From Xestospongia bergquistia (Eukaryota > Porifera > Demospongiae > Haplosclerida > Petrosiidae): a DNA stretch of 64,000 nt. The translations under genes and the position numbers were made by a program. This document shows positions 1-47,664 of this stretch, one piece after another (position 1 is the first letter of the stretch; every line of letters begins with the position of its first letter). The notes under the pieces were generated by a model. That model saw only the letters and a list, made by a program, of their open reading frames with translations. It ran no database searches and had not been told where the DNA came from. The stretch lies in assembly GCA_963965975.1 (NCBI GenBank), contig OZ014416.1, forward strand, positions 2,604,001-2,668,000, in the 5' to 3' direction.

Positions 1-1590
1 GTTCAACCACTTGCTCAACACTTGAACCAGGATATCTAATCTGGACCGTGGGCGACGTTTAAGTAACAACTCAGCTGGAGACTGTGATGTGGTAGCATGA
101 GGAGTGAGGCGGTAAGTGAATAAGAACCGTGACAACTTGGACTCTATGGATCCACTGGTAAACTTCCTCATAGACTGCTTAAAACTCTGGACTGCCCTCT
201 CTGCCAACCCATTAGAGGCTGGATGGTAAGGGGAGCTAGTAGAATGAGCAATACCATTTGCTTCTAGAAATTCCTTAAACTCCTCACTAGTGAACACGCT
301 ACCATTATCCGTTACCACTCTCTCTGGAAGACCATGTGTGGCAAATATTGACTGAAGACATACTATGGTGGCTTTTGATGTTGCTGCAGGTACTGTCTTG
401 ACTTCTAGCCACTTTGAGTGGGCGTCCACAACAACTAAAAACATCTTCCCCATGAATGGTCCCGCATAGTCCAAATGTAACCTGCACCAAGGACGTTGTG
501 GCCACTCCCATGGGTGTAGTGGGACAGCAGCAGGTGCATTGAGCAAACTTTGACAAGGTATGCAAGTCCTGACCATTGTTTCAATATCTTTATTAAGTGA
601 AGGCCACCAGACATAACTACGAGCGAGAGACTTCATTCTTGATATACCAATATGCGTATCATGAAGCTCTTTTAACACTGAATCTCGAATTTGTGGAGGT
701 ATAACAACCCTTGAGCCCCACAATAAACAATTATCACTCACAGTCAGTTCTAGACGTCTACACCAATATGGCTGTAAACCTTGATTGTCCACTTTGGTAG
801 GCCAACCTTGGAGAGTAAACCTAACCACTGCTGATAAGACCGGATCACAAGCTGTGAAATACTTGACTTGTTTACTAGTGAGTACCATTGGACCTTGGTG
901 TTCTGCAAACAAAAATACTTCCTCTTCTTGTGCTTTAACTGTGGAGGACATTGGGACATCTAGTGGTAACCTACTCAGTGCATCTGCCTGAGGTATTTGA
1001 CTACCCGGTTTGTATGACACGGTGTAACTATATGAACTCAAAATCAGTGCCCAGCGTTGAATACGAGCAGATGCTAGTGTTGGCACTGCTTTATTCTCTC
1101 CAAAGAGATACCTTAGCGGTTGATGGTCAGAGCGAATGGTGAAATGTCTCCCAAACAGATACGAGTGAAAACGTCGAACACCAAATATGATGGCTAACCC
1201 TTCCTTCTCTATATGAGCATAGTTACGCTCTGCCTGTGACAATGTCCTAGAGACAAAAGAAATTGGGTGTTCTGTGCCATCATTCATGAGATGAGATAGG
1301 ACCGCCCCCACTCCATATGGTGAGGCATCACAGGTCAAAATAATCTTCTTGTTTGGGTCAAAATGAACTAACAACAGATCTGAAGACAATCCTGACTTGA
1401 CAGCTTGAAATGCCTTCTCTTGGGCTTTAGTCCAACACCACCGACTGTTCTTCCTGAGCAACAAATAGAGTGGTGACAACCTAGAAGACAAATGAGGTAA
1501 AAATTTGCAATAATAATTTACCAAACCAAGAAATGCCTTGAGCTGAGTCTTGTTAGTTGGAGCTGGAGCTTTCTGGATTGCTTCTACCTT
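1..1590 (-). pseudogene. Gypsy RNase H and integrase (frame-shifted continuation, truncated by window edge)
   Basis: After the frame change near 1588 the translation remains open to the left edge. It holds the RT thumb, an RNase H-like region with TCDASPYGVGAVLS (near 1320) and an HHCC integrase zinc finger (H..H with CIPC, roughly 550-665). The integrase core has its first Asp in LDYAGPF (near 470), the second in TDNGSVFTS (near 310) and the Glu in NGLAERAVQS (near 200). All three catalytic acidic residues are therefore visible. The integrase C-terminus is cut by the window. The only visible defect is the frameshift, which could be real or a consensus error. Confidence 0.85.
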
Positions 1591-3521: not shown

Positions 3522-3549
3522 TGAATAGGTTTTTACCCTCGTCACCAAA

Positions 3550-3751
3550 TGAGGTAACCTGAGGACCACGCTAACGTTTGACCGAGATTTAAGAAGATTG
3601 ACAACAACTTATATTTTTAAGAACAGCAATGACTAATGTGACATACACAAAGACTATGCATGCTCACAAAAAACAAAACATAAACATTGCATCATCATTA
3701 CACAATCATTACTTAATTAGTAACAAGTAATTAAACACACAAATTATTACA
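3550..3751 (-). repeat. Candidate 5' LTR of the gypsy element
   Basis: Reading the minus strand, a segment starting TGTAATAATT (from 3751) ends ...TTACCTCA (3550). Two bases later comes TGGTGACGAGGGT (3535-3547), a plausible primer-binding site starting with TGG, and then the Gag Met at 3521. The 202-bp length and TG...CA ends suit an LTR. The copia coding sequence ends exactly where it starts, as expected if gypsy inserted into copia. The 3' LTR is not in the window, so the boundaries are provisional. Confidence 0.42.
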
Positions 3752-3753
3752 CA

Positions 3754-4437
3754 TTCTCATCAGAGTCTACTTGAATATTCACCGCAGTTGGGGTGATTGT
3801 CTCTGCTTCAGTTTTGTTTACCCAAAAATCATTTTCATTAAAGACCACATCTCTGCTTATCACAACTTTGGTGGTTTTCTCATTCGTCAACCTTTGGAGT
3901 TGAGGCTATTACCAACAAATCTAAACTTCTCAGCCTTTTGTCTATTTTGTTTCTTTGACAGTCTGGAATGTGGGCATAAGCCACATAACCAAACACCCTC
4001 AGATGACTTAGGTCTGGTCTCCTTTGGTACCATTTCTCATAAGGTGATACCCTTTCTTTAAATGCACTGGTGGAAACTCTGTTTCTAATGTAAGCTGCTG
4101 TAGCCACAGCTTCACCCCAATAGCTATCAGGTAACCTTGCAAATCTAATCATGGTTCTTGCTGACTCCATCAAAGTGCGATTTAGTCTTTCTGCTACTCC
4201 ATTCTGTGCAGGGGAATATGGGACAGTGAGCTCATGTCTGATACCTTTAGACTTAAAAAATTCTTCGAATTCTTTAGAAACATACTCCCCTCCATTGTCT
4301 GTACGAAGTGTACCGATACTCAATCCACTTTCATTCGTAGCAAGAGCTTCAAACTTTTTAAACTTATGTAAAACTTCAGATTTGTGTCTCATAAAATAGA
4401 CTTGACAACATCTCCAATAGTCATCAATGAACGACAC
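3754..4437 (-). pseudogene. Copia integrase core and start of RT, truncated
   Basis: Starts with SFIDDYWRCCQVYFM, then LRTDNGGEYVSKEFEEFF (second catalytic Asp) and SPAQNGVAERLNRTLME (catalytic Glu). The C-terminal integrase part includes LRVFGYVAYAHI. After 3880 the frame changes twice and the copia-typical RDVVFNENDF can still be read before a stop near 3754. No RT palm follows; the gypsy LTR candidate begins here. Confidence 0.8.
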
Positions 4438-4455
4438 AAAGTATCTCTTTTGTCC

Positions 4456-5172
4456 TCAGGACTCAGTGGGCATTGGTCCACACACGTCACTGTGAACGCA
4501 TTGTAACTTTCTGGTGGAGTGAATTTCACCAACATGCTCAAACGGTTTTCTGTGCAGTTTGCCTTCACTGCATGATTCACAAAATGATAGCTCATCATTC
4601 TTTGAAATGGTCATTCCTGTCACGAGCTCTTTAGAAGCTACTTCTCTCATTTGCTGTTTCCCTAAATGACCAAGTCTTCTATTCCATAAATCGGCTGAGT
4701 TACCCTTTTCAAATGCTGATGAGGCACACTGTTGTACCTGCACCACAGGTTTACAGTTTAGCTTGTATAACTTATTGTCAACCAACAACCCCATGCCAAT
4801 TAACTTCCCTTTTCTATTCTTAATAAAACAATTTAGGTCTGTGAATCTAACAGTATTGCCCTTCGATACTGCTGCTCTTACTGAAAACAAATTACTTGTA
4901 AGTGTAGGGACATACAACACATGTCTCATGACACAATTTTTCTGTTTGCTAACCTTAAATGTCATATTAACTTGAATATCTCTTGTACCAAGACCTTCTA
5001 CGTGACGTCCATCACCAAGGCTCACTTTCTCTGGAACTTCAAACTTGCAATACTGATACAACAGTTCCTTTGAATGAGTCATGTGACTAATGGCACCAGA
5101 GTCTATTATCCACTCTTCAGACACTGACAAATCAGCCAAGGCTGTAAATACTCTCTCTGACTCCTGTGACAT
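4456..5172 (-). pseudogene. Copia protease and GAG-pre-integrase segment
   Basis: Contains WIIDSGAISHMTHSK, the retropepsin active site of copia elements (DSGA), then the GAG-pre-integrase motif LWNRRLGHLGKQQMREV, and the beginning of the integrase core with CVHSDVCGPMPTES, where the Asp is the first catalytic residue. The open frame stops at 4456 and the integrase continues in another frame below 4437. Confidence 0.8.
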
Positions 5173-5247
5173 CTCTTTAGCAGGTTTTGCATTGTGTTTA
5201 CCAGTCGGTTTAGGATTGTGCTCTTGTGGTTTCTTGGGACAGTCCCG

Positions 5248-16213: not shown

Positions 16214-16690
16214 TATAGTGATATATATAATACATTATAGTATAACTGATATATGTACTTTATAATATAACTGATATATGCACATTATAGTATAACTGAT
16301 ATATGTACATTATAGTATAACTGATATATGTATATTATAGTAGAACTGATATATGCACATTATAGTTAAACGGATATATGTACATTATAGTAGAACTGAT
16401 ATATGTACATTATAGTAGAACTGATATATGTACATTATAGTTAAACGGATATATGTACATTTTAGTAGAACTGATATATGTACATTATAGTAGAACTGAT
16501 ATATGTACATTATAGTTAAACGGATATATGTACATTATAGTAGAACTGATATATGTACATTATAGTAGAACTGATATATGTACATTATATAGTAGAACTG
16601 ATATATGTACATTATAGTAGAACTGATATATGTATATTATAGTAGAACTGATATATGTACATTATAGTAGAACTAATATATCTACATTGA
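16214..16690. repeat. 25-bp tandem repeat with 75-bp higher-order period
   Basis: About 19 copies of AACTGATATATGTACATTATAGTAG. From about 16365 to 16530 every third copy carries the variant TTAAACGG, giving a 75-bp higher-order unit repeated about three times. It ends about 60 bp before the proposed start codon of the ANK-Roc gene, so it would lie in its promoter or 5' UTR. Confidence 0.92.
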
Positions 16691-16748: not shown

Positions 16749-19700
16749 ATGACAGCTCAACTTTCAGAAGAAGAGCAGTATGACATTGTAAGTATATTAG
16801 TGAATAATACAGTATACTACATGTGTTAGTGTACAATCAAAATATTACATATTATTTGTAGAGCAATGCTCAATTTGTAGAGATATAACCAGACAAAATG
16901 GCTGTCATATTCAATTGATTACAGTATATTGGATTCATATAGCTGTTAAAGTTGACTAGTTGATTCTTATGTAGCTAGACAAAATAGGAACTAGCTAAAC
17001 AACAATATAATTTATCTTCTTTTTTTCCTTTACTAACATGTACATAGCTTCTTCATAACTCAATTTGTTCAACAAGTAATAATTTCTAAAAGGTGTACCC
17101 TTTTACATTTATTTGATTATCTATGATAAATATTAATACTATTAAGATTCATTAATACAACTGATCATATTTATTACCATGTTATAAATACTATTATATA
17201 TATATAAACAATGGTTGTATCTACTATCATTCTATGAACCTGTTTCTATGTGTTTCTAGTACTCACTTTAATACTTGAATAGTGTCTAATTATTACTATT
17301 ACTTGATCATATCACATACAAAATAAATAGTAGCAACAAAGGAATGGATAAAGTTTGATAAAAATCATTTTTAAGAATATGCAGGGATGGAAATATCCAA
17401 AATTATTGAAATAAGGTAGGGATATAGTAATCTCTACATACCTAGTAATGACAAAGACTTTGTTACTTTAGTTTTAATTAAGAAAGAGTGAGACTGCATA
17501 CACCACAAATAGTATAATGTCGTTTAACAATCAAAATCATATAAATAAAAATCATATTTTAAGAATAAGTATGAATGGCAATATCAAAAAAATATTGAAA
17601 CAACATAGGGATGTAGCAATCTCTTCATAAATAGCAGTGACAAAGATAGACCATGTTACCTTAATTTATATTAGGAGTGAATAAGACTGCATTGCAAATA
17701 GTGTTGTGTTCATTTAACATATCAATTTGTTATTCCAGATTATGTCACTCCTTATTTATGTGGTAGTGAATAAGATACCTTATCATATCTATTATGTACA
17801 TACACACATGTATTGGTTTCCTCATATTGTTTATTAGTTGTCTAGACTAATTTGAACTATATAATTAATTATACATAACATAATATGGATTCTAATTAAA
17901 TTTAATTCCATATATGACAATATACTGGAAAGGAAATGTATGCTAATACATTAAGTGTATAAACATTTCATTTTCAATTAATGGTGTTTCTTAGTAAATA
18001 CTCGTATATAGCTAGTTTTAGTGTATCACAAGTCTTTGCATATACATCCCTAGGTAAATCCATATGTTATTAAAAACTCAGTAAATATATTTAAAAACTT
18101 CTAATATACAGTATGATATGCATAGTCATACTCATGTATGAAACCCACATGACAAATTCATATGTCAAAGTGACATATGACTGTTAGCAATATTGTTTCA
18201 GGAATTTCTTGACACTGCCATCCCTGTATCTTTTTTTTCATTTTTAAAGTGACTTATAACATATGTGTATTACAAATAATTATGATTATGTATTTGATGA
18301 TACTCCAATTACTGCTTATAATACGATTTAATTGAATTAGTTGCAACTGATATTGTTAGTAATAATGGTGTCCTTTATTGTCAAGTTCACATTTTGTTTA
18401 ATGCTCGAGTCCCAATGAAAAAAGCCATGCTTTGCATTTTCTACCAGGATCCTAGACATCAGTCTTGATTAAAGTGAAACTTTTGTATTTCTTAGTATAA
18501 GGGCTACACCTTTTATTTCAATATCATTCAACAAGAAGAAAGGCTGCTATTTGAAGGCAACATGTTAATAATAAAATGTTAATATATGTTAATAATAAAA
18601 TGTTAATATATGTTAATAATAAAATGCTGCTAAAATTAGAATTAATTGTGAAGCTTGCTAAAGATTGCTGATAAACTGTCAACCAAATAACTTACATTTG
18701 ACAGGAATTTAAAATAAAACAAATTAGTGGTTGTGTTTAAGGCAATGTTGTTGTTGTATGTTATTTATCTAGTTTTGTGCTTGATCATTCATAGAATTTA
18801 TGAGCCTACAGTTATTTTCTGGTTGTTAAAGGTTTCTTTAATAATAAAGTACACTTTCAAGAATCTAAAATTTGATTCTAGTCAGTAAAAGCTTAATAGT
18901 AGGCACTTTTGTTAAGTAGACACATTGAGTGTATATTTGAGGGTGGTGTCAATTTTACTAACACAGGGAGGAAGGGATGGTTATTAATTTACAGCCTGAA
19001 GGCCACTCCTACACAAGGAAATCTGATATATATAAGTCATTTCAGTGTCTTCATATATCAAGAAATATTGGTGTCAGTATATTCACGTATTGTTCTAGTT
19101 ATTATTGTAGATACATTATGTAAATTCAATTGAACTGTTTATTATTAGTTAGTATAGTCTTATATTTGTAGTATAGTCTAATTGTTATATAATGTTATCA
19201 CTTTGTATATTGTGTATTTGACCTCTCCTATAATTTTATTAGTCTCATATAATACATGTAGTTGTGTATGATTTACTATTTTTAAATGTAATGACTTGTT
19301 TTGTTATTATATAGGATTTTGAACTTTGGAAGTCTGCTAGTAATGGACATTTAGAGAAAGCAAAACAAGCCCTTCAGAAAGGAGCAAACATCAAATGTCA
19401 TTTTAATGTAAGATCCTATTAATTTACCTTATAATCTACTGTTATTATTTGTGTCTATTAACTTAAGCAATTAATTCAAAATATATAGGTTTAACGAGTG
19501 TTACTTCATTTTAGCCACAACTAAGTATTAATTATAAACTTTAACATTTACACAATTTAGTAACTATTATTCTATTTGTTAAAGTTACTGAATTAGTATC
19601 CACAATTAATAACATACATGATCTTTACATGTAGTATTTTAAATATTGTCTTATAATTTAATTGAATGAAACCATTATATTATGTGATAGTAATGTCTTA

Positions 19701-22700
19701 ATTAATGATACATGTCAATGTAAAGTAATAGCTTGTATTGTGTATATGTAGATATATAATTAGATTCTTATTAGTGTTCCACCAATACAGAGATTTACTG
19801 ATACAATCGATACCAATTTGTATGCCTTTATTTCTCCCGATAGCCGATCTGATATTGAATGAAATGAAGTATTAAAAAATGTTATTTCAAAAGCTACACA
19901 AAAAGTGACATACATCCTTGCTTGAATCCAAGATATTGACAGTGAAAAAGTTCAACACACCTCTAGTTTTTGCCCTCTGCACCATTCTTTAATGTAATAG
20001 GTTTGGTTACACTTGACATCACGTGTTTATATTATTATTATTAATTATTATTATTATTGTTATTATCGGTAAAACTCAAATGTTTGATACCGATATGGTT
20101 GATATTCATAATTATCGGTACGATACTGATACCGATGTGAGTATCGGTGGAACACTGATTTTTATTTTACATATTAAAACTTCTGTGTTTATTATATAGA
20201 TTCATGATGGTGAATGTCATTATATAACACATACAACACCTCATACTGTAGCTTACATCAATGGTCATAACACGATTGTAGAGTTCTTGGAAAATGTAGA
20301 TGCTACTCCTGATTATGTAAGTGTATATATGTATGTAGTTGAGGTCAATATTTAGTATAACTCAAGTGTTTGATTGTTACATTAATATTATATACATGTA
20401 CATTTTTATATTAAAATGTCTCCTATTTATTGCTCAAGTCCTTATACACATAACAGACAGTAAACATTTGATAAAGATACTATAGCTTTCTAAATTAAGA
20501 ATAATAAAGAGCTATCTATGTGATTTGAAAAACTACTAGAACAGTTATTATAAAGTACGTGTATTTAAAATGCTGAGAAATTAAGAAATTTATTATACTT
20601 GTCATCATTACATTAATTAAAGTCAACACTTATTGCTTAGTGTCTTAACACTAGACTATTAATCATGCAGGGCTCAGGTTGACCACACAGGAAATATTTG
20701 TTCACGTATATTAATTGCTTTTTAGAACACATAACCACAGGAATGTTTATTTCATGAATAATAACATTTAATGGACTGTATGCAATGATTAACACCCACT
20801 CCAACTGGTAGCAAAACAGATTAATTAGTTGATTTTAGTATTTCATAATCTCCATGCTTTATATTTAGATTTTTAGCTTTGGTATCAATTAATTTTTTGA
20901 TATTTCTCCTAAGGTAGCACCACAAATGTTCTATTATATATCTATTCACTTTTGTTAGTATTAAAGTCTTGAGATCACTTTAGATAAAGAAATTATGCTT
21001 TAATCAGTTGATGTAGTTATGCTTCATGGTCATGTACTTTTCACATAGTTAATGATGGAACTTTAGTTTCATGAACTCTGGATCATGTGACACATGGCTT
21101 TATTTATAAGTGTATTCCTGGTATATAATGTCGTATTTATTATGATGTACATTATCTGTATTTGCTTATTGTGATTTCATAGGATGAAATTATGTTACCA
21201 GCTGCTGTAAGAGGACTAGTAGATATAGTGAAAGAAATTTTAAAAAGAATGCCAATGTGAATGCTAAAGAGCAAGATTTTGTAAGTTATACCTATTATAA
21301 TGAATGTTTCTTTTCTAGTAAAGAATTATGGGGCACTGTTTTTTTCAAAATTGAAAAGAATAGCTCACTGAGCTTGTAATAGCACTGAGCTTATACCCAA
21401 ATAATAACAATCCACAGTTCAATATATAATTTGACTTCTATGTTATGAACTTACTGTATCTAGATACCTAAATAAACAATCTTGTTGTATTGCTGTAATA
21501 GCCAAGGAATTAGACCAAGTCTATCATCAACAAATCACTGCTTCATCTGTGTACACATATATTTTTACACTGTTACTAACTCTACAATATGATATCAAAC
21601 ATTGCTATGATATCTTCACAATACACTGTAACTGATTACCAGACTTAGTTATATTCTCTTACCAAAGTATTTTTAAAATTGAAGTAGTTATATTTTCATT
21701 CACATTCTTTGTTGTTTTATTATTAGGATGATGATACAGCTTTGCATTTAGCCTCAGGTAATGGTCACATTGAAACAGTCCAATTTCTCTTATTATCAAA
21801 TGCAGATCCTAATATTCATAACAGGGTCAGTGTGTAATTTGTGCATACTTTATACTTCATTTATCATCTCCACGACATCTGCATATATGTAGTACTACCT
21901 GTCTATAGTATGTTTGCACTGACTTAGGACTCTAACAACATAAAAAACTTTGTCTTAAGATAATGACAGTACACTTTCACAAAAGTGGGTATTTTAAAAG
22001 AATATCAACTTCTTTGCAAGTAGGGAATGTATTTAACTTAAAACTTCCATACAATGTCGAAGAAATATCTTATAAATTCCAAAAAAGCTAGCTATTATCA
22101 GAATAAAGTAGTAAGCTATCATAGTTTGAAAACACCTGGGTACAAGGCTATGAAGGAATTAACAGTGCTCTTTCCTATTGCTATTGATTAAGACCTTAAG
22201 GAATGTTGATGGTGCAATTTGTTTAAATTTTATGTGATTAACAAGCATAGTCACCAGCAACTATCAGTAGGTGCGGCCTGTTATAATACCTTAATAATTT
22301 AGTTTATTGTTGATAATTTAATTATATCAATTATAAACAGATAAGTTGTGAATATTGTTAGAGGTTATCACTAACAGTATTCAGAGTGTCATCTCCTTTG
22401 CACTATATCAAAAATTGTATTTAGTTAGTTTTTTTGTTTGGGTCAGATTTGATGTGGTAATATAATAGCTATAATTACCTGAATTGATGGCTGATACATT
22501 GACTATATACTTTATAATTCCTATGACTTTTATAATTGAATAACTTTTCTTCTTTTTTTCTAGTATGGACAAACACCAGCACATGTTGCTGTACGGGAGG
22601 GTCATGTTGGTGCACTAAAGTTATTAATTGAAGTGGGACAAGCTGATGTAAACACTACAGACAAAGTAAGTTATATTATAGTTACTTATGAATTATTCCC

Positions 22701-25700
22701 TTTGAAATATGACATTTAATATTGTCTTCAATATCAACCTCACTCATATCCAGACTGTCAATATTTTAAAACTGTTTTCGGCAAGATGTTATGTTCCAAG
22801 GACAATAATCCAAAATCATTTTTTTCCTGCAATGTGTCAAACATAGCCTGTTGTTTTACATCAATCAATTACAATATTTATTAATGGGATCAATTAATTA
22901 ATAGTCATGAATAACTAGTAATCAAAATTTAGCATGTTCTGTGTGACCTTCATTAACCCTCCCACATATACACACATGTACATAATAACTTATCTATATT
23001 CTTGTAATTTACCTCTCTGTTTGATCCTTCAGGTTTTTATAATGCATTCTACATTAGTTGGGCATTCTTAGAAGCTTCATATATATTGTAAATACATGTA
23101 GATCACCAACTTCAGGTGGAAGTACATTGACATGTGGACAAGGTATTTTGTCCATTTGTATGTAAAACCATAGTTTACATGATCTATCTGACAATAAGTT
23201 AATTTGGTCACATCTGGCTTCCTGAAAAATATATATTGTATAAAAACCTACAATAATTTAGTGATATGTACTGACATTTTCATAGTATTAGTCCTTGTCT
23301 ACTTTTGTATTACATGAATTAGTGATTTAATTCTATTTCACAATGTTCTGTCAGTAAGTGTTACTCATGGATCTTTTTACATGAGATAAAATTTGTACAT
23401 AAATGAAATCAAAATTGTAATACATCATTGCTGTGCTGTATAGTAACAATCATTGCTCAAATTTGACATAGTAATACAATAACTATAGTTTGTGTAATTT
23501 TTGAATTTGAATAACATTTTTTGTTTTTCTTTCCAGTTTAAACTAACACCAGCGCATTATGCAATAAAGAAGAGTCATGTTAATGCTATAAAGTTATTAA
23601 TCAAAGTGGGACAAGCTGATATAAATATTACAGATGAAGTAAGTCACATTATAGTTACTTAAGAACTATTTCCTTTGAAGTATGACATTTTAATGTGGTA
23701 TTCAAAATTGATATCAACTTGTCTCATACCCAGACTATCCATTCCTTAAATGCATTGAGAACATGTCTTGACAAAAAATGTTCAAAAGAATCCCAAATCA
23801 TTCAGAGTTGGAAAAGTACTAAAGCAATTTAAATGACAAAATCCTTCCCATAAAGAACATTTTAACAATCATATTTTTTGATAATACAATCAATTGATAA
23901 TAAAGGGCATACTTTCCAGATTTCTTGTTCTTTCTTTGAGGATTGACAAATTCTTTAATTGCTTTTATCACCCTAAATTTCAGTTTTTACCTGCATTGTG
24001 TCAAACATAGGCTATTTTTGCTATATTGATAGATGAATATATTCGTAAATGAATTAATTAATAGTCATAAACAATTAGTAATCAAAATTTAGCATGTTCT
24101 GTGTGACCTTTATTAACCCTCCCACATATACACAATAACTTGTCCATGTTCTTTTTACCTGTCTATTTGATGCTTCAAGTTTTTATAATGCATTCTACAT
24201 TAGTTGAGCATTCTTAGAAGGTTCATATATTCTAAATAGATCACCATCTTCAGGTGGAAGTACATTGACATGTGGACAAGGTATTTTGTCAATTTGTATG
24301 TAAAACCGTAGTTCACATGATCTATCTGTAATAAGTTAATTTGGTCATATCTGGCTCCTTGTATAGAAACCTGTAAAAATTTAGTGATGTGTACTGACAT
24401 TATCATAACATTAGTCCTTGTCTCCTTTTGCATTGCATGAATTAGTCATTTAATCTACTTCACAATTTTCTGTCAGTAAATGTTACTTATAGAACTGTTT
24501 ACACGAGATAAAAGTTGTACATAAATGAAATCAAAATTGTAAGACATCATTGCTATGTGGTATAGTAACAATCATTGCTCAAATTTGACATAGTAATACA
24601 ATAACTATAGTTAGTGTAATTTTGTATTTGAATTAATTTTTTCTATTTTCTTTCTAGTTTGAACGAACACCAGTGCATTATGCAGCAAAGGAGGGTCATG
24701 TTGATGCTCTAAAGTTATTAATTGAAGTGGGACAAGCTGATGTAAATGTTATAGATGAAGTAAGTCACATTAAAGTTACTTAAGAATTATTTCCTTTGAA
24801 GTAAGACAGGTTATTGTGATGTTAAAAATTGATATCAACTTTTCTCATAACCAGACTGCTCGTTACTTCAAGTATTTTGGGAACATGCTTTGACAATAAA
24901 TGTTCAAGAGAATCCCAAATCATTCAGAGTTGGAAAAGTACTAAAGCAATTTAAATGACAAAATCCTTCCCATAAGAACATTTTAACTATCATATTTTTT
25001 GATAGTACATGCAATCAATTGATAATAAAGGATTTCTTGTTCTTTCTTTAAGGATTGATAAATTCTTAAATTGCTTTTATCACCCTAAATTTCGGTTTTC
25101 ATCTGCATTGTATCAAACATAGGCTATATTGATAGATAAATATATTCATAAATAAATCAATTAATCAAAATTTAGCATGTTCTGTGTGACCTTTATTACC
25201 CCTTCCACATATCCACACATGTACATAATAACCTATCTATATTCTTGTAATTTACCTCTCTGTTTGATCCTTCGGGTTTTTATAATCCATTCTATATACT
25301 AGTTGTCCATTTGTATGTAAAACCATAGTTCACATGATCTATCTGACAATAAATTAATTTGGTCATATCTGGTTCCCTGAAAAATATAAATATACTACTG
25401 TATAAAAACCTACAAAAATTTAGTGATATGTGCTGACATTTTCATAGTATTAGTCCTTGTCTCCTTTTGCATTGCATGAATTAGTGATTGACTATTACTC
25501 ATAGATCTGTTTACATGAGATAAAAGTTGTACATAAATGAAATCAAAATTGTAAGACATCGTTGCTATGTAGTATAGTAACAATCATTGCTCAAATTTGA
25601 CATAGTAATACAATAACTATAGTTAGTATAATTTTTGTATTTGAATTAATTTTTCTCTTTTCTTTCTAGTCTAAACAAACACCAGCACATTATGCAGCAC

Positions 25701-28700
25701 AGGAGGGTCATGTTGATGCTCTAAAGTTATTAATTGAAATGGGACATGCTGATATAAATATTACAGATGAAGTAAGTCACATTAGAGTTACTTAAGAATT
25801 ATTTCCTTTGAAGTAAGACAGGTTACTGTGATGTTCAAAATTGATATCAACTTGTCTCATAACCAGACTGCTCATTACTACAAGTATTTTGGAAACATGT
25901 TTTGACAATAAATGTTCAAGAGAAACTCAAATCATTCAGAGTTGGAAAAGTATTAAAGCAATTTAAATGACAAAATCCTTCCCATAAAGAACATTTTAAC
26001 TATCATAGTTTTTGATAGTACAATCAATTGATAATAAAGGACATACTTTTCCAGATTTCTTGTTCTTTCTTTGAGGATTGATAAATTCTTTAATTGCTTT
26101 TATCACCCTAAATTTCAGTTTTTACCTGTATTGTGTCAAACATAGGCTATTTTTGCTCTATTGATAGATGAGTATTCATAAATGAATCAATTAATTAATA
26201 GTCATGAACAATTAGTAATCAAAATTTAGCATGTTCTGTGTGACCTTTATTAACCCTCCCACATATACACTCATGTACATAATAACCTATCTATATTCTT
26301 GTAATTTACCTCTCTTTTTGATGCTTCAGGTTTTTGTAATGCATTCTACATTAGTTGGGCATTCTTAGAAGGTTCATATATTCTAAATACATGTAGATCA
26401 CCGTCTTCAGGTGGAAGTACATTGACATGTGGACAAGGTATTTTGTCCATTTGTATGTAAAACCATAGTTCACATGATGTATCTGACAATAAGTTAATTT
26501 GGTCATATCTGGCTTCCTGAAAAATATACTATTGTATAAAAACCTGTAAAAATTTAGTGATATGTACTGACATTTTCATAGTATTAGTCTATGTCTACTT
26601 TTGCATTGCATGAATTAGTCATTTAATTTTATTTCACAGTGCTCTGTCAGTAAGTGTTACTTATAGATCTGTTTACATGAGATAAAATTTGTACATAAAT
26701 GAAATCAAAATTGTAAGACATCATTGCTATGTGGTATAGTAACAATCATTGCTCAAATTTGACATAGTAATACAATAACTATAGTTAGTATGATTTTTGT
26801 AGTTGAATTATTTTTTACTATTTTCTTTCTAGTTTGAACGAACACCAGCACATTATGCAGCACAGGAGGGTCATGTTGATGCTCTAAAGTTATTAATTGA
26901 AGTGGGACATGCTGATATAAATATTACAGATGAAGTGAGTCACATTAGAGTTACTTAAGAATTATTTCCTTTGAAGTAAGACAGGCTTTTGTGATGTTCA
27001 AAATTGATATCAACTTGTCTCATAACCAGACTGCTCATTACTCATTCAGAGTTGGGAAAGTACTAAAGTAATTTAAATGACAAAATCCTTACCATAAGAA
27101 CATTTTAACTATCATATTTTTTGATAATACAATCATTGATAATAAAGGGCATACTTTTCCAGATTTCTTGTTCTTTCTTTGAGGATTGATAAATTATTTA
27201 ATTGCTTTTATCACCCTAAATTTTGGTTTTCATCTGCATTGTATCAAACATGGGCTATATTGATAGATGAATATATTCATAAATGAATCAATTAATTAAT
27301 AGTCATGAACAATTAGTAATCAAAATTTAGCATGTTCTGTGTGACCTTTATTAACCCTTCCACATATGCACACATGTACATAATAACCTGTCTATATTGT
27401 TCTAATATACCAAGGTATTTTGTCCATTTGTATGTAAAACTATAGTTCACATGATCTATCTGACAATAAGTTAATTTGGTCATATCTGGCTTCCTGAAAA
27501 ATATATATTGTATAAAAACCTACAAAAATTTAGTGATATGTACTGACATTTTCATAGTATTAGTCCTTGTTTACTTTTGTATTGCATGAATTAGTGATTT
27601 AATTCTATTTCACAATGCTCTGTCAGTAAGTGTTACTCATGGATCTTTTTACATGAGATAAAATTTGTACATAAATGAAATCAAAATTGTAATACATCAT
27701 TGCTGTGTGGTATAGTTACAATCATTGCTCAAATTTGACATAGTAATACAATAACTATAGTTTGTGTAATTTTTGAATTTGAATAACATTTTTTGCTTTT
27801 CTTTCTAGTTTAAACTAACACCAGCACATTATGCAGTAAAGAAGGATCATGTTAATACTCTAAAGTTATTAATTGAAGTAGGACAAGCTGATATAAATAT
27901 TACAGATGAAGTAAGTCACATTACAGTTACTTAAGAACTATTTCCTTTGAAGTATGACATTTTAATGTGGTATTCAAAATTGATATCAACTTGTCTCATA
28001 CCCAGACTGTCCATTCCTTAAATACATTGAGAACATGTCTTGACAAAAAATGTTCAAAAGAATCCCAAATCATTCAGAGTTGGAAAAGTACTAAAGCAAT
28101 TTAAATGACAAAATACTTCCCATAAAGAACATTTTAACTATCATATTTTTTGATAATACAATCAATTGATAATAAAGGGCATACTTTGCCAGATTTCTTG
28201 CTCTTTCTTTGAGGATTGATAAATTCTTTAATTGCTTTTATCACCCTAAATTTCAGTTTTTACCTGCATTGTGTCAAACATAGGCTATTTTTGCTATATT
28301 GATAGATGAATATATTCGTAAATGAATTAATTAATAGCCATGAACAATTAGTAATCAAAATTTAGCATGTTCTGTGTGACCTTTATTAACCCTCCCACAT
28401 ATACACAATAAACTTGTCCATGTTCTTTTTACCTGTCTATTTGATGCTTCAAGTTTTTATAATGCATTCTACATTAGTTGAGCATTCTTAGAAGGTTCAT
28501 ATATTCTAAATAGATCACCATCTTCAGGTGGAAGTACATTGACATGTGGACAAGGTATTTTGTCAATTTGTATGTAAAACCGTAGTTCACATGATCTATC
28601 TGTAATAAGTTAATTTGGTCATATCTGGCTTCCTGATAAATATACTACTGTATAAAAACATGTAAAAATTTAGTAATATGTACTGACATTTTCATAGTAT

Positions 28701-31700
28701 TAGTCCTTGTCTACTTTTGGATTGTATGAATTAGTGATTTAATTTTACTTCACAATGCTCTGTCAGTGTTACTTATAAATCTGTTTACATGAGATAAAAT
28801 TTGTACATAAATGAAATCAAAATTGTAAGACATCATTGCTATGTGGTATAGTCTCTGTGCTGCATAATGCGCTGGTGTTTGTTTAGACTAGAAAGAAAAG
28901 AGACAAAATTTATTCAAATATAAAAATTATTCTAACTATAGTTATTGTATTACTATATCAAATTTGAGCAATGATTTTGAGTTACATCATTGTAGAATGT
29001 ACAAACCTTTTTTGAGAGATTTAGTCTTTTTCCTATGACTATATATCAAAAGCATTCTTAAAATTATGATAATCAAGTTAGTCTGTTTATTTGTCGCCAT
29101 ACTACACATGAAATATACATTATATTACTTATAACAATACAGTTGTCATTTATATTGTCACTATTTTCATTTTAGTATGGCAATAGTCTACTCCATTTAG
29201 CCTGTGCAAGTGGCAATAAAGAAATTATTCACTACCTTTTACATAGCGTTCAGCTAAATCCAGATCATCTAGTAGCTCTAAACAATTGTCATCAAATGCC
29301 ATTGGATTGTATTCCATCATACGTATCTAATAGTAATAGATTTCGATTACTGAAGCTGTTTCAACCATTCAAACAATGTCACAGAGACTACCTCACAGAA
29401 TCATATGCTAAATTATTTTTCTGTGGAAAGACAAAGGCTGGTAAAAGTTTGTTGGCTGCTGTTATCTCTTATCATGCTGATAAGGGATCATATGTTTTCT
29501 ATGATCCAGAAAAATGTGTTGAAGGTGCTGTATTACAAACCACTGGAATTGAGTACCTCAGTGTTCGCAGCTGCGAAATAGGAAACATTGTGATTTTTGA
29601 TTTTGCTGGACATGCAGAATATTACAGTAGCCATGCTGCAGTATTGGAAACTCTCTTGTTGAGGTCACCAGCTGTCTTTGTAATTTTAAGCAACCTTACT
29701 GATGATGAGGAGACAATTAAGAAAGATCTGCTTTTCTGGTTTAACTTTGTTGAAAATGTGAGCATGAAGTTAATTAGCTCAAGTCAAGTACTTGTCCTTG
29801 GAAGTCACATTGATGAGTTGGTCAGTGAAAAAGACTTTCAGCCTTTTGTAAATGACATTGCAAGTCTGGCTGTTCGTTTTCAAAATTACAAAGGATTTTT
29901 ACCAATAGATTGTCATCGACCAGGAGGAAAAGGTGTTAAGACATTTATGAAGAAATTAAAAGAGAGCTGTGAAGCTGTAGTAGAAAAAAATGATAAGATG
30001 AGCTACCACTGCCACTGTCTAAATTCTTATCTTCAACAGCTGGAGGAGGTTGCCATTAGCCTTGATGAGCTATGTTCCAAATTAATGGAACTAAACAAGC
30101 CTTGTCTTTTAACTGATCAATCAACAGTGTTAGAAATTTTGACCATTCTTGGAAGCAAGGGCCTCATTTTGTTTCTGGCTGACACATGGGTGATTATTGA
30201 TGAAAAGGCTCTCTTAACTGAGGTAAATGGTGTCTTATTTAATAAAAGTATTGATTGTGAGCGTAAACCAGTTGCCAGTAATACTGGTATAATGCCTGTC
30301 TCTACTCTAGCTAACCTTTTCAAAAACCACAACACAGATATGCTGATTTGTTTTTTAACAAGTCTACAATTTTGTCATCAAATGGACTCTTTTGCTGTTT
30401 CTAGTATCACTAACAATGTACCATCTGATGACTTCCTTATTAGTAAGGATGAAAAATTTTTATTTTTTCCAGCACTTATTACAGAAGACAGGCCCACTTC
30501 AATCTTTGAAACAACAGATGGATTTGGTTGGTGCCTATGGTGTCCTGAATCACATCAATTTCTCTCCATGCGTTTTCTCCATATTCTTTTTCATCACTTA
30601 GCTTATACTTGCTGTCCTCCTCCTCTTGAGGAAACTGATTATATTACTGATAATGCAGCAATCCAAGAATTACACTGAGTTTGTACTATGTGGAAAAATG
30701 GTATTAATTGGAAGGAGGAGAAGAATGTTGAAGTGATGGTTGAGGTTACTGAAGGCAACCGATGTGTTACAGTTCTTGTGTCTCACAACAGTTTAATTGA
30801 AAGTTATCAACTCCGTACATCACTCATCAAAGAAGTACTAAAACTTAAAAATGAGTTATGTCCATGTACTTCAAAACAGTTCGCTATTGCAGCTGGTAAA
30901 TTTAAAGATATCATGGAAAAGGATCAGAAAAATCGCACCCTGTATGCTCTAAGAAACGTTGCTAAAGGAGTACTAACAAGAGAAACCATTACATCCTCTA
31001 CTGACAAAAGTGTTATTGTCCAATTAGTTGTTGGTGAAAAGGAACCATACCTCTGTCTTGCCCCTCTTGTGACCAAAGCTCTCTTTACTGACAACAACAA
31101 AGATCTACCACTACCTGATCACTATGTCCAACATATTGAAGAAGTATGCAAGGACATCATGTCCCTCTATCCATCATCAAATTTTACCCACCTCTCTGTA
31201 AAAGAACATCTCAACAAATTTAGTATTTTTGCTGGACGTAATCCACTGGTAAGTTTACATTCACTTTCTCTAAACAATGTGTCTATGACATTGTTTATCT
31301 TATCTACATAGGGTATACCTTCTCCACCAATAAAAGATGAAGTAATACAAAGATTATCAAAACATGTTCAGACAAGAACAACAAAAGGTTCTAATTATGT
31401 CAGTATTCTCTTTGTATTGACTTAGTTATTATTACAGATTTTATTAACACTGTTACCACACCTGACAAACAGATGTCATCATCTATTACATGCAATGTTG
31501 GAGGTATGTCTACATGTCAAGAAAATGTCATATTTTCAATAATTTAGTTTATTTATTATTATTTAGTTTACTTGTTTTTATATCTACTACTATTATATTT
31601 GATTACTTTCATTAAGTTATATATTGTTATATTATAGGTAGTAGTCAGGAGACAATGTTAACAAAGGATAGTTTATCTGTTGAATTCAGTCATTTCCCTA

Positions 31701-32964
31701 AATTATGTATGTTAGACAATCTTATATGACAGTTCTATATCTTATTGTACTCACAGTCGAAAGACCAACAAGACGTGAAGTTTTAATCCAACTAGCTGAT
31801 ATTGATACTTTATGGCGTAGTATTGGAGATAGTCTCGGAGTGAGTGATAATGACCTTCAAGGTTTGGCCAATGCCAATATGCAGAATCAAACGAGACTTG
31901 GTCACGTTATTCAGAATTGGTTTGACATGGATGGTCAAGGTGAAGGTGCTCCTGTCACATGGACAACCATTTTAGATGTCATAAAGGGACCACTTATTAA
32001 GAAGAAAGCTCATGCTATGACAATATATGAGTACTTGAAACTAGAAAGTTCTGCACAACAGATTACTCAAAGTAAGTGGACAATACAATGTTTAGTTACT
32101 ATATTTATGTAGACTGCTTCCTTAATAATTCCATGGTCACTAAAGAGATAGTTAATTTACTCATGTCAACCATATTGGAGGTCATTTTAAGAGACATTTT
32201 TGTCATTGCTTTGCAAGTATCTTTAATTTTTATGGAATATGACAATAAAATATTGACCATGAGATAATTAGAAAGTTTACCTATGGTTAACTGAAAGAGT
32301 ACAAAATAAACAGTTTCAGTTATCAAGCTATGATTGTGTACACCTATTTTATTATAGGTAGTAACAGTGAACATGTTAATAATAGTACATATATACACTA
32401 TTATATACTATGTTCATTGTCATACTAAAATTTTATAGGAGGTGTGGCACAAACAGACAATTATAAAATTAATGAACAAACCAATGGTAAGTTACTATAT
32501 CTTAACTTGTGTATAAAGATACAATGATTTCTCCTCGATATAGATATCAATGAAAGTGTTAGTGAGTCTATCACAGAGGACAATAACACTGTTAGTGGTA
32601 AGTTTATAATTTAGCATAGAAAGATAATGTATTTTATTAATTACATTATACAGGTAAATTTAATGCATCAAAAATCTTTCGGGTTCATTTTGCTGATCTT
32701 TGTGACATAATCATGGATGCTAATCCTCATCGTATGGTTAACAAACTTGTCTCTGCTGATCTGTTGCCACAGGATATTGCAGAAGATGTTAAGAGTACAA
32801 CTGATGCATATGATACAGCTGATAAAGTTGTGGGAAAGCTACAAAGACTGATAGATGATGATGAACACCCAATTGAGTTGCTAAAGAAGATTTGTGATTT
32901 TCTTTTAGAACAAACTGACAAGACTTTAAAGGAAATTGGTACTAAAATGATAAGTCAATTATAG
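16749..32964 (+). CDS. Ankyrin-Roc-COR-Death-CARD protein, 20 exons
   Basis: My exon model is 16749-16787, 19315-19407, 20200-20316, 21183-21280, 21727-21825, 22564-22665, 23537-23638, 24658-24759, 25670-25771, 26833-26934, 27809-27910, 29176-31248, 31312-31387, 31438-31503, 31638-31706, 31757-32071, 32358-32384, 32439-32486, 32544-32597 and 32654-32964. All introns are GT-AG and phases agree throughout, except for a missing base in exon 4 and a TGA at 30676. The protein would be about 1365 residues: ankyrin exons, Roc-like GTPase, COR-like region, Death domain, CARD-like domain. By family knowledge, ankyrin repeats bind ligands, Roc-COR switches and oligomerises, and death folds recruit signalling partners, so an intracellular sensor or cell-death adaptor is inferred. 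The start ATG (MTAQLSEEEQYDI) is the first in a spliced phase-0 exon. The gene may be a pseudogene if both lesions are real. Confidence 0.78.
16788..19314 (+). other. Intron 1 of the ANK-Roc gene
   Basis: A 2.5-kb AT-rich intron. A diverged direct duplication of about 160 bp is visible (about 17365-17520 and 17560-17720, both with AATCATxTTTAAGAATA and GGGATxTAGxAATCTCT). A 23-bp unit, TGTTAATAATAAAATGTTAATA, is repeated three times near 18565-18630. No exon was seen. Confidence 0.6.
19315..27910 (+). CDS. Ten ankyrin-type exons, all phase 0
   Basis: Each exon is flanked by AG and GT(A/C/G)AGT and most encode exactly one repeat: 93 bp, 117 bp, 98 bp, 99 bp, then six of 102 bp. The 102-bp exons carry the ankyrin core TPAHYAAxEGHVDALKLLI and end in ADINITDE or a close variant. 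Exon 21727-21825 reads DDDTALHLASGNGHIETVQF. The 34-residue length is one longer than the canonical 33. The exon at 21183-21280 is one base short, in an A5 run, so its second half is out of frame. Confidence 0.85.
19772..20157. mobile_element. hAT-type MITE in intron 2
   Basis: The ends read TAGTGTTCCACCAATAC and GTATCGGTGGAACACTG, near-perfect terminal inverted repeats of the hAT CAGTG...CACTG kind. They are flanked by ATTCTTAT and ATTTTTAT, an 8-bp target duplication with one mismatch. The interior carries TTA/TTATTA simple repeat and inverted GATACCGATA blocks. There is no coding capacity. Confidence 0.85.
22564..28851 (+). repeat. Tandemly duplicated exon-intron units of about 1.0-1.2 kb
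   Basis: Six units start at exons 22564, 23537, 24658, 25670, 26833 and 27809 (spacings 973, 1121, 1012, 1163 and 976). Introns as well as exons are nearly identical over long stretches, for example the block ending in CAATAACTATAGTTAGT before each exon. The units from 23537 and 27809 are closest to each other in exon and intron, so one duplication moved a multi-unit block. Some units lack about 150 bp around the GGTGGAAGTACATTGACATG segment. Confidence 0.9.
28852..28975 (-). repeat. Inverted fragment of an ankyrin exon and its intron
   Basis: On the minus strand this reads as the end of the duplicated intron (CAATAACTATAGTTAG, CTTTTCTTTCTAG) followed by the first 30-odd bases of an exon, SKQTPAHYAAQ, identical in type to exon 25670. 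The plus-strand repeat unit breaks at GTATAGT (28851) and switches directly into this inverted copy. It lies in the intron before the Roc exon and does not alter the spliced product. Confidence 0.88.
29176..31248 (+). CDS. Large exon: last ankyrin repeat, Roc-like GTPase and COR-like region, with in-frame TGA
   Basis: 691 codons in phase 0. It opens with an ankyrin repeat (NSLLHLACASGNKEIIHYLL). The GTPase follows: P-loop GKTKAGKS (29425-29448), a switch-I-like TTGIEYL, DFAGHAEYY as G3 (29599 on), and GSHIDEL in the place of G4, where Roc domains usually have THxD or TKxD. A winged-helix COR-A-like stretch follows (LTILGSKGLILFLADTWVII). A TGA at 30676-30678 interrupts the frame; the same frame then continues with VCTMWKNGINW and about 190 codons of matching sequence to the donor at 31249. 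A CGA-to-TGA change would explain it. Family assignment rests on motif order, not on a search. Confidence 0.82.
31312..31706 (+). CDS. Three linker exons (31312-31387, 31438-31503, 31638-31706)
   Basis: Short exons of 76, 66 and 69 bp joining the COR region to the Death domain. They switch the phase from 0 to 1 and then stay symmetrical 1-1. They encode a polar linker (RTTKDFINTVTTPDKQ, SSSITCNVGG). The intron between the first two is only 50 bp, in line with compact sponge introns. The donor AAAG/GTTCTA at 31388 is weak, so this junction is the least certain of the tail. Confidence 0.65.
31757..32071 (+). CDS. Death domain exon
   Basis: A 315-bp exon, phase 1-1. It encodes about 105 residues with the six-helix Death pattern: LWRSIGDSLGVSDNDL (helix 1-2), a middle stretch ending LGHVIQNWFDM, then VTWTTILDVIKGPLIKKKA with the conserved Trp before helix 5, ending in IYEYLKLE. 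Death domains pair with other death folds in apoptosis and innate immune complexes. The exon is a symmetrical cassette. An acceptor and a GTAAGT donor are both present. Confidence 0.82.
32358..32597 (+). CDS. Three Ser/Asn-rich mini-exons (32358-32384, 32439-32486, 32544-32597)
   Basis: Exons of 27, 48 and 54 bp, each a multiple of three and phase 1-1, each with AG and GT signals. They encode low-complexity polar sequence (SNSEHVNN; GVAQTDNYKINEQTN; INESVSESITEDNN). Because all three are symmetrical, any could be skipped without changing the frame, so the Death-CARD linker length could vary by splicing. Confidence 0.6.
32654..32964 (+). CDS. Terminal CARD-like exon
   Basis: Starts in phase 1 and ends at TAG 32962-32964. 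It encodes about 100 residues of amphipathic helices: FADLCDIIMDANPHRMV, KLVSADLLPQDIAEDV, ADKVVGKLQRLID, PIELLKKICDFLL, a spacing typical of CARD-type death folds. It occupies the same terminal position, with the same acceptor phase, as the clearer CARD exon of the second locus (63545-63871). An alternative is another death-fold subclass. Confidence 0.7.
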
Positions 32965-42889: not shown

Positions 42890-42932
42890 CATGTATTTTC
42901 TAAGCACTACATTTGTGCTTAGAAAATACATG
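42890..42932. repeat. Perfect hairpin at the satellite edge
   Basis: CATGTATTTTCTAAGCAC (42890-42907) pairs perfectly with 42915-42932 across a 7-base loop. The right arm is normal satellite sequence; the left arm is its inverted copy. This is either a replication foldback or the terminus of a mobile unit. Confidence 0.85.
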
Positions 42933-44060
42933 TAAATATGACTAGTACGATCAACCATACACGTTATTAGCTCAGCAAAAATAAAGTTTCAACATTTTTC
43001 TGTTTTGCTGGGTGGAGATATCACACCTACTCTAGTAATGGTATTCACTACATTTGTGCTTACAAAATACATGTAAATATGACTAGTACCATCAACCATT
43101 CACCTTATTAGCTCAGCAAAAGTAAAAGTTTTAACATTTTTTGTTTTTCCTGGGTGGAGACACCACACCTACTCTTGTAATGACCTCCACTACGTTTATG
43201 CTTACAAAATACATGTAAATATGACTAGTACGATCAACCATACACCTTATTAGCTCAGCAAAAATAAAATGTTCAACATTTTTCGTTTTTTCTGGGCAGA
43301 AACACTACGCCTACTCTTTTAACAGTCTCCACTACATTTGTGCTTACAGAATACATTTAAATATGTCTAGTACGTTCAACCATTCACCTTATTAGCTCAG
43401 GAAGAATAAAAGTGTCAACATTTTTCACTTTTTCTGAGTGGAGACACCACCACCTACTCTTGTTATGGACTCCATTTCATTTGTGCTTGCAAAATATATG
43501 TAAATATGACTAGTACAATCAACCATTCACTTTATTAGCTCAGCAAAAAAAAGGTTTCAACATTTTTCGGTTTTTCTGGGTGGAGACACCACACCTACTC
43601 TTGTAATGGTCTCCACTACATTTGTAATTAGAAAATACATGTAAATATGACTAGTACAATCAAGCATTCACCTTATAAGCTCAGCAAAAATAAAAGTTTC
43701 AACATTTATCGTTTTTTCTGGGCGGAGACACCACACTTAGTCTTGTAATGGTCTCCACTTCATTTGTGCTTACAAAATACATGTAAATATGACTAGTACA
43801 ATCAACCATTCACCTTATTAGCTCTGCAAAAATAACATTTCAACATTTTTCGTTTTTTCTGGTCGGAGACACCACACCTACTCTTGTAATGGTCTCCACT
43901 ACATTTGTGCTTACAAAGTACGATCAACCATTCACCTTATTAGCTCAGCAAAAATAAAAGTTTCAACATTTTTCGTTTTTTCTTGGTCGAGACACCACAG
44001 CTACACTTTTAATGGTCTGCACTACATTTGTGCTTACAAAATACATGTAAATATGACGCA
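42890..44060. repeat. 142-bp satellite, block 1 (about 8 copies)
   Basis: Tandem copies, spacing about 140-145 bp, with landmarks CACTACATTTGTGCTTACAA, ATACATGTAAATATGACTAG, ACCTTATTAGCTCAGCAAAA and GACACCACACCTACTCTTGT. Copies are diverged by scattered changes; one near 43915 is shortened by about 14 bp or more. The first copy starts with an 18-bp perfect hairpin. Confidence 0.92.
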
Positions 44061-44776: not shown

Positions 44777-47664
44777 TCACTTATTCAAAAATTGATTGTA
44801 ATTAAGAATCCACAGTCGATTAGCATCAATTAAGTCAATAGCTACCACAAATGGACCAACAAGTGTTGAAACAGGAACAATTGGATTAATGTTTAACGAT
44901 GTATTGGTGTAAACAGAATAGAAGGAGGATATTGTATCAAAGCATAGATTACCATACCATTTGATGTAAACAAAAATTTTGGAGATACCACAAAAGGAAT
45001 GGGAGAAAAAATAAATAACACTGCCAAAATGTGGCCCACTAGATGAATCAATTGAAACTACAGATGAACATTTGAATGACATTGAACATCTTTCAGATGT
45101 AAATTTGATCACCCTCTCTTTTGAAAATTCATAATTAACAGTATTCATTATACGTATTTGTCTTGATGGTTCTAAACACATCAATATCTCCTTTTCAGAG
45201 AGAGGGTATCCACTTGAAGGAGTCCATTTATCTATAGGTGGAAAACATCTGAGTTTATGTCTTTTCATTACCTTGGATCTTTCCTCACTGTATCAATGGC
45301 ACAAGCTATCATAATCAGCATTTGTTAGTCTATAAAAATGCTGAATATGACCTACTTGTTCATCATTCAAACTTGCTGAACAACTCCTCCCTAACTTATC
45401 ATCATCCTCTTCCTCAGACCAATCAAAGATGGATGAGAAACTATTAGGTACCATATTGAGACGAATAAACCACTCATAGATACGGTAGGTTTCTATTACT
45501 GTTGCTTCTGGGTAACGACGATTCTTGACCCTCCTTGCTATCCATGAATTAAAGCACTCAAAAAAGGTACATCCAATAACCTGCAACTGGTCCAAATTTC
45601 TGTATATAGAAAGGCAAGTGATGTAAATGGTGAAAAACAATTACATTGAGAGATACAGGGAAGTCTCTTTCAAGAAGAGCAAGGGTATTATGTGTGTCAG
45701 CTTCTAGCTTCTCTATTGACTTAGTTTCCACATCATGTGAACAAAGACGAGTTATCACATCACAAAATAAGTACAGGGTCAATTGTTGTCGTGGTCCTAA
45801 TAGGTCTCGAGTGCAAAATTTCAATATTCCACTGCATATGATTTCTTTCCATTCATGGCTTTTCATTCCAGAACTTGTAAATACATCTCAAGGTCGCCAA
45901 CCAAACGTGGAGGGGACACATATAGACCTTGCTCTGTCATTGGCAAGTATAATTTGATCCTGTGAAAGAGAAAAGGGAGCAGGTGGCAATTGTTCACCTG
46001 CTGTTACCCAGGATGACTCAAATTGGTTTCGTAGTCTCTCCTCTTCACGAACACGTTTAGAATCTTCAACAACACAAAGCAAGCACACTAGATGTTCTGC
46101 TATGTTCTTTATTAAGTGCATTGGTTCAGCTGGTGTGTTTGTAATTCTGTTGTGATAAGGTAGTACTCTCAAAACACAGTTACCCTTGCATCCAGACTTT
46201 CGGGATAGTTGCTTTCGTTTCACATCGGAAGCCTTTTCATACCTTTCATTGTAGTGGTCAATGTATTCCATGCCCTTTTCAGTGGGAGGATAACATTTAT
46301 CCCTTTCGTGGGGAAAGGATGTGGTGTCATCATGTAGAGAATGGAATGGTGTCAGAAACCTTCTATGTCCTAAGTACACCATTTTTCTCAGAGTTTTACT
46401 ATACTCCCCTTTTAATTTACAGTAAACACACCCTGCATATGCTCCTGCACCTAACAAACAAAAAATTAACGTCACGTCAGTATCAGAAAGGGTAATACTA
46501 CTGACCATTGCAATGAAAGACTTTATTTTGTCCTGGATAATCCAGAATGTTTAATAATATGTTGATCTTCAGGGAAAGTGTTCATTCTTTAAAGAATCAA
46601 AAATGGTTTGGACACACATCTTCTGGAGTTCTTCAACTAAAAGATTGAAGTATGGATCTAGGTTTTTAGGCTCCTTTCGTCCAGGAATAATACCAACTAG
46701 AAGTATTGATTCAGCTTTTGACTGTATATATTGAGGAAAGTTCAAAATATTAAGCATTATTGGCCACATACTGTACTGAGACCTTTCTCTTGAAAAAGGG
46801 TTAAGTCCATCAGTGCAGAATGAAGATGATATGCCCCTTGCATCACCTGCAAAGAATCCATCAATTGCATAGGAAGATCTCCATACTTCAGAGTTGTGTA
46901 TGTCACCAACAAGATTAGGATGATCAGAGAATACAAGATGAGACTGTAACAACTCTGAGACTTTCAGTAAAGCAAACATATCCTTTATTCTAGAAAAAAC
47001 AGGTAAATATTGGAATTTTTTTAGGCACCTGTGGGTTATCACAGTATCGGTTACTACCACATTTGAGACACGATTGGAGATCACTATACTCATTTTGGAA
47101 CAATACACAGTCATTCACACAAGCATGAAACTCCTGTGGCTGAATGAGTAGATGATTGATTAAAGAATAAGCAGAAGAATAAGAAGAAGGAAGATCATTA
47201 TTTTGAGGAAGAATGAATGTATGAAGAAGATACAGTAGATGACTGAATGCTTCTTTGCTTAGTCCTGGATAAGTGGCAAGCCATGACATTAACATAGCTA
47301 TAGCAGACAAACAGGAAATCTTAGAACCGGGATAGAGCTGCTGATTCTCGACATCCATAAATTCAAAAGTATCAGGAATTGAAAAACCAGTGAAGCTTGT
47401 TGTAGATGACGTAGACTGTGATGTTGACTTGTCAGAGGATGAGGAGTTGTTGGAGTCATCAGAAGTCTGAGATAGTGATGTTCCTAAGGACTCAGACAAA
47501 TTGACCTCTTCCAGAGAAACCGGATTTAAGAAATGGAAAGATTTAATGTTTATCTCATTATTAATTGATTTAAAAGAGACTTCAGGAGAAGGAAGAAATG
47601 GATTAGTAAAGTAGATAGGAGATGAATGCTGCAAAAATGAAAATACAATATTAACTGTGATCAA
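44777..47664 (-). pseudogene. Tnp2/DUF4218 (CACTA/EnSpm-like) transposase gene, frame-broken
   Basis: Minus-strand pieces in order: a Ser-rich N-terminus (near 47430), a Cys pair region CLKCGSNRYC (near 47040), the Tnp2 core with FPQYIQSKAESILLVGIIPG (near 46710) and KEPKNLDPYFNLLVEELQKM, GAGAYAGCVYCKLKGEYSK (near 46430), PMHLIKNIAEHL (near 46110), HHLPFYIQKFGPVAGYW (DUF4218, near 45590), SWIARRVKNRRYPEATVIET and a C-terminal part ending at TAA 44777. Frame changes occur at an A7 run near 47010 and a T6 run near 45565; other breaks may be introns. The family cuts and pastes CACTA elements. This copy is inactive unless those homopolymer shifts are errors. Confidence 0.78.

Follow-up and report, generated by a model that had tools for sequence, protein, structure and literature searches.

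In the 64,000-bp stretch of the Xestospongia bergquistia genome analysed here (contig OZ014416.1, abbreviated C6, 2604001-2668000; hereafter the window), a 20-exon gene model at 16749-32964 on the + strand represents, with a probability of roughly 0.6, a disrupted member of a very large ankyrin-Roc-COR-Death-CARD family, whose products are predicted to be NLR-like receptors built on ROCO GTPases. Across the 146 Mb searched (21 contigs), the COR half of the model had at least 150 matches, fragments included (199 candidates), and 75 of the 86 matches listed for the Roc half possessed an uninterrupted exon frame of at least 680 aa. NACHT had 95 matches in the same genome, and the COR-family and NACHT counts are both lower bounds. 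The layout, regarded in the original prediction as an unusual one, is therefore no one-off but recurs across a large family in the same genome. The accompanying proposal of an NLR-like sensor on a ROCO GTPase gains from this family size, from change at the ankyrin face and from Death and CARD modules shared with NACHT genes; it loses for the window copy itself, which is broken by a frameshift and a stop codon that had been overlooked.

The order of the parts was the same in paralogues. Locus L069 (C6:7103000-7112800) possessed counterparts of the ankyrin-type exons a1 (19315-19407, phase 0, 81% identity), a2 (20200-20316, phase 0, 62%), a3 (21183-21280), a4 (21727-21825, 99 bp, 88%) and a5, followed by Roc-COR, the linker exons l1 (31312-31387), l2 (31438-31503) and l3 (31638-31706), Death (31757-32071) and the C-terminal CARD exon (32654-32964, including the stop codon), all in the window's order. 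In L070 the CARD was kept, while l3 and Death were not seen. Death followed COR in 25 of the 29 paralogue places L010-L038, where CARD lay beyond the end of most pieces; many of the scanned paralogue loci overlap one another. The linker exons l1-l3, identified by paralogue comparison, were conserved between COR and Death in many paralogues, and three further short linker exons of unclear conservation, c1 (32358-32384), c2 (32439-32486) and c3 (32544-32597), separate Death from CARD in the window. As the same parts occurred in the same order in paralogues, chance was excluded as the source of the layout, which is thus real as predicted.

The attachment of the tail was further examined by counting, on the same strand, Death matches up to 4 kb and CARD matches up to 7 kb downstream of COR, with 150 listed matches for each domain. 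Both were present for 38 of the 150 COR matches, Death only for 6, CARD only for 19 and neither for 87, whereas the reverse-strand control gave 0/150 and displacing the positions by 15 or 30 kb in either direction gave 0-2 with both, 0-2 with Death only and 2-7 with CARD only. Among the 30 best COR matches (window included), 26 had both, 4 had CARD only, and none had Death only or neither. At the 5' end, the initiator exon e1 (MTAQLSEEEQYDI, 16749-16787) with its flank matched 40 genome places, window included, of which 23 had a COR match within 25 kb downstream, compared to 1/40 on the other strand; the remaining 17 had none. Together with their controls, these counts and the e1-COR linkage indicate that the Death and CARD exons most likely belong to the Roc-COR gene. 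That they form a separate transcript is very improbable: the phases agree across the tail exons, l1-l3 are conserved ahead of Death in many paralogues, and Death lay 283-1269 bp downstream in 44 of the 150 COR matches listed. What speaks for it is the modularity of the tail, as seen in the 4 of the 30 best COR matches that had a CARD but no Death match, and in six places on C6 (near 4525281, 5347585, 5455125, 6005938, 6129428 and 6495921) where an e1-like exon was followed by a CARD-like exon 2.3-2.5 kb downstream with no COR match between, the next one being at least 21 kb away. These six places possibly represent short genes that combine the 5' end of the family with a CARD alone.

Within the gene model, the 20 exons proposed were found, their internal borders carrying GT and AG, and the motifs GKTKAGKS, DFAGH and SHID were all located, together with the last ankyrin repeat, in the large exon (29176-31248) that holds the Roc GTPase and COR; the Death exon and the terminal exon were found as well. 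Domain assignment in the large exon was made mostly via paralogues. On the window's own exons, Pfam Death scored 17.8 bits against a cut-off of 22.6 (E 0.0038), and Roc, COR and CARD gave no match at E up to 1, so that paralogues and folds were used for these three domains; the profile search suggested with the original prediction thus yielded only a sub-threshold Death in the window. Among 23 paralogues, Pfam Roc matched 22 at E up to 1 and COR-B matched only 2 (best E 0.046). Pfam Roc scored above the cut-off in L091, and 20 of 25 Death exons matched Pfam Death at E up to 1 (best 9.6e-5). A profile of 23 paralogues (from the 29 loci L040-L068, leaving out L046, L062, L063, L065, L066 and L068) reached LRRK2 Roc among Protein Data Bank (PDB) sequences only at E 0.2 to 0.87, and a profile of the C-terminal exons (19 of 20 C-terminal pieces plus the window, L069 and L070; L087, without a match, was left out) had no CARD-like match among PDB sequences. 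The structure models proposed as a check recovered both folds: that of paralogue L040 matched ROCO Roc-COR, with COR placed directly after Roc (structures 3dpt, 3dpu), and the C-terminal domain matched the Apaf-1 CARD, its helix bundle being most like CARDs. Based on motifs, paralogue Pfam matches and fold, the family therefore shows both hallmarks of ROCO proteins, a Roc domain with nucleotide-binding motifs and a COR directly after it. NACHT was absent from the Pfam matches of the family, its GTPase scoring and folding as Roc, and no leucine-rich repeat (LRR) sensor was found, as the repeat in the large exon scored as ankyrin in Pfam; the separate repeat exons were identified by ankyrin motif and homology.

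The ankyrin repeats are encoded as single phase-0 exons. Six of them, a5 (22564-22665), a6 (23537-23638), a7 (24658-24759), a8 (25670-25771), a9 (26833-26934) and a10 (27809-27910), are 102-bp cassettes within an array of approximately 1-kb exon-plus-intron units (22564-28850, + strand), whose introns are 82-94% identical between units and parts of which recur at approximately 4.27 kb, the a6-to-a10 distance. Five ankyrin exons precede the large exon in L069 compared to ten in the window, showing that array length varies. An inverted ankyrin exon remnant (SKQTPAHYAAQ) lies at 28850-28890 (- strand), in the intron before the large exon.

Change between repeats was concentrated at six repeat positions that we take as the binding face, these being the positions of designed ankyrin proteins. 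Over 18 ankyrin exons, of which the window supplied 6 and paralogues 12, mean entropy was 1.84 at these positions compared to 0.63 elsewhere, a value reached by 2 of 20,000 random position sets, and the difference held against the other variable positions only (p = 0.0018). In nine disjoint closest pairs, binding-face codons showed 37.8 nonsynonymous and 0.2 synonymous changes (p = 4.6e-4), compared to a pN/pS of 0.82 for the other ankyrin codons. With the window exons excluded (6 pairs), the binding face still showed 31.3 nonsynonymous and 0.7 synonymous changes (p = 0.016; other codons, 0.91). Roc-COR, in 12 of the loci supplying the ankyrin exons, had a dN/dS of 0.39 and is thus conserved under purifying selection. 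As a caveat, positive selection over whole ankyrin exons was not significant in disjoint pairs (p = 0.13), and the all-pairs average (dN 0.219, dS 0.173) uses non-independent pairs. These tests concern short exons from paralogues rather than populations, retrieved by an exon finder that needs a TPxHxA-like motif; 13 of 27 loci, one of them the window, gave an exon, a 99-bp exon of L051 and the window duplicate L039 were dropped, one L070 exon was added, and the repeat numbering accounts for a one-residue insertion.

A link to NACHT-type genes was found through the tail modules. Homologues of the window's Death or CARD lay within 3 kb upstream, on the same strand, of 27 of the 95 NACHT matches listed; among these 27, 15 had Death, 12 had CARD and none had both. 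Among the matches listed, no such homologue lay downstream of NACHT or on the other strand. The closest NACHT-linked Death was 59% identical to that of the window (E 1.7e-30). The order of the modules is reversed between the two gene types, Death or CARD preceding NACHT in NLR-type genes and following COR, often both together, in ROCO genes.

Two other functions were weighed for the family. It may consist of kinase-less cell-death scaffolds of DAPK type (ankyrin-Roc-COR-Death), acting on internal stress rather than non-self. The DAPK-type order of ankyrin, Roc-COR and Death is indeed present, and the core order equals that of DAPK1 minus its kinase. No kinase was matched by Pfam in ten upstream + strand open reading frames (ORFs) of at least 60 aa at 7.8-14 kb, where short exons could escape; relevant to this question, e1 is a recurrent first exon in the genome. 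The scaffold function is nonetheless unlikely, since family size, change at the ankyrin face and an extra CARD common to NACHT-type genes point to variable recognition. Still less likely is an expansion outside immunity, for chemotaxis, phagocytosis or tissue self-recognition. In its favour, slime-mould and placozoan ROCO expansions are read as tied to chemotaxis and phagocytosis (PMC4104024), while Death and CARD outputs common to NACHT-type genes favour signalling in defence or death.

For NLR-like receptors on a ROCO GTPase, the preferred reading, the following course may be envisaged. The ankyrin face would bind a variable ligand, of microbial or symbiont origin or arising from damage, and binding would change Roc-COR both in its nucleotide-dependent state and in its dimerisation. 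A Roc-COR switch of this kind, governed by nucleotide and dimerisation, is described as a general, still debated ROCO mechanism (PMC6337361). Death and CARD would then recruit, by like-with-like contacts, adaptors of the animal's NLR-type proteins, with a defence signal or the death of the cell as the outcome. The repertoire would diversify through gene duplication and through the duplication and exchange of single-repeat exons. More tentatively, and with doubt prevailing, more than 100 ankyrin-ROCO genes, dozens of them with a Death-CARD tail, could form a main cytosolic non-self sensor repertoire of this basal animal, perhaps outnumbering NACHT genes. They would share their adaptors with NLRs and would have diversified as single-repeat ankyrin exons were duplicated and swapped, with selection acting on the binding face.

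The family members were unevenly distributed. Of the 51 best COR matches, 38 lay on C6 (window included), and the other 37 of these all fell within 4.3-8.1 Mb; over the 150 COR matches listed, C1 accounted for 59 and C6 for 58. On contig C13 (3.41-4.05 Mb), four equal-scoring copies were spaced approximately 190-220 kb apart, each with a disrupted second copy approximately 10 kb away on the other strand, representing either a recent segmental duplication or an assembly duplication. In L057 and L059, the Roc half was 81-83% identical to the window and the COR half only 42%, so these loci are apparent recombinants between subfamilies.

Concerning the window copy, the agreement of phases claimed for its exons was incomplete. 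Phase 0 applies to both sides of e1 to a10, a3 excepted, and of the large exon; l1 passes from phase 0 to phase 1, and l2 to c3 begin and end in phase 1. The 98 bp of a3 shift the frame, compared to 99 bp and an open frame in L069, and an in-frame TGA stands at 30676-30678 (+ strand), in the COR part of the large exon, at a point where the paralogues have no stop and the frame continues. Skipping a3 restores the agreement of all other phases and leaves the TGA in place. With the frameshift and the TGA, the window copy as assembled is unable to encode the whole protein. It probably represents a pseudogene or a null allele, if not an assembly error. Eight exon junctions, Death and CARD follow the TGA. 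Judged from its sequence, the copy would yield a truncated fragment at most, and nonsense-mediated decay could act on its transcript.

The copy is likely to be simply a pseudogene without function; the family may work as described. It carries the two lesions, it lies at 2.63 Mb on C6, apart from the 4.3-8.1 Mb stretch with most of its closest relatives, its sole near relative (2.72 Mb) is 47-48% identical, and it is one of the 11 among the 86 relatives listed in which the uninterrupted 680-aa exon is absent. Against this, the coding exons, approximately 4.1 kb in total, contain only two lesions, no splice site is damaged, and the best relative shares 88% identity in the Roc half and 87% in the COR half, so that decay can at most have begun recently; alternatively, the allele may be a polymorphic null or the assembly may be in error.

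Elsewhere in the window, a 25-bp minisatellite of 18.5 copies (16223-16688) ends 60 bp before the first exon. Retrotransposon remnants on the - strand (1584-5247) comprise a reverse transcriptase ORF (1584-3608) and a pol/gag-pre-integrase ORF (4456-5247), and a weak tnp2-type transposase similarity, below cut-off, was found at 45888-46550 (- strand). A 142-bp satellite-like repeat forms two arrays (42905-44057 and 48846-49584), the units of which are similar. Another ankyrin gene is perhaps represented on the + strand by additional ankyrin-like fragments and a short ORF of helical appearance (54415-54842, approximately 57-58 kb, and 63671).

No description of such a family in a sponge was found in full-text searches, as judged by titles, abstract openings and passages, with subscription papers and preprints outside the scope. 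To the extent of these searches, novelty lies in how large the family is, in the change at the binding face of its ankyrin cassettes, in the tail that combines Death with CARD, and in the modules shared with NACHT genes; the highest single-species ROCO count met there was 47 (PMC11378527). A family of this kind would directly connect ROCO GTPases with innate sensing and would serve as a test bed for Roc-COR switches driving death-fold assembly. If the prediction is true, NLR-like sensing in one genome rests on two different NTPases.

DAPK1 has no CARD and does have a kinase, the domain for which the upstream ORFs searched here gave no Pfam match. It shares ankyrin repeats, Roc-COR and Death with the family (PMC6337361). 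Sponge NLR/NACHT genes are alike in having an NTPase switch, a repeat sensor, Death or CARD, and a large family (PMC12909245); they differ in having NACHT in place of Roc, in Death or CARD preceding the NTPase and, among the matches listed, in the two occurring together in none of 95. Roc/COR domains have also been reported from Aplysia, in TLR and MyD88-like proteins (PMC9334734), and from sea anemones, in novel immune genes (PMC5094078). The combination of a ROCO protein with death folds is itself not novel, since Trichoplax is listed with at least 17 ROCO proteins, some with CARD and death domains (PMC4104024). This early animal resembles the present family in joining such domains to Roc-COR, but has tetratricopeptide and LRR repeats and far fewer genes, and the passages available describe no ankyrin exon cassettes (PMC4104024). 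Bacterial AP-GTPase/COR conflict systems likewise place fast-evolving repeats before GTPase-COR and a variable effector or adaptor at the C-terminus, but are prokaryotic, with LRR sensors and other effectors (PMC8195603). Brown-algal LRR-ROCO genes, numbering 31-37 in Ectocarpus and 47 in N. decipiens (PMC11378527, PMC4104024), differ in using LRRs rather than ankyrins, in 72-bp phase-2 exons and in LRR-ROC-COR being reported as the sole layout; they agree in having one repeat per exon, exon shuffling, diversifying selection and a proposed role as Roc-COR immune receptors (PMC11378527). If the more tentative view of a main sensor repertoire is true, the ankyrin-ROCO genes would be the animal counterpart of this brown-algal system.
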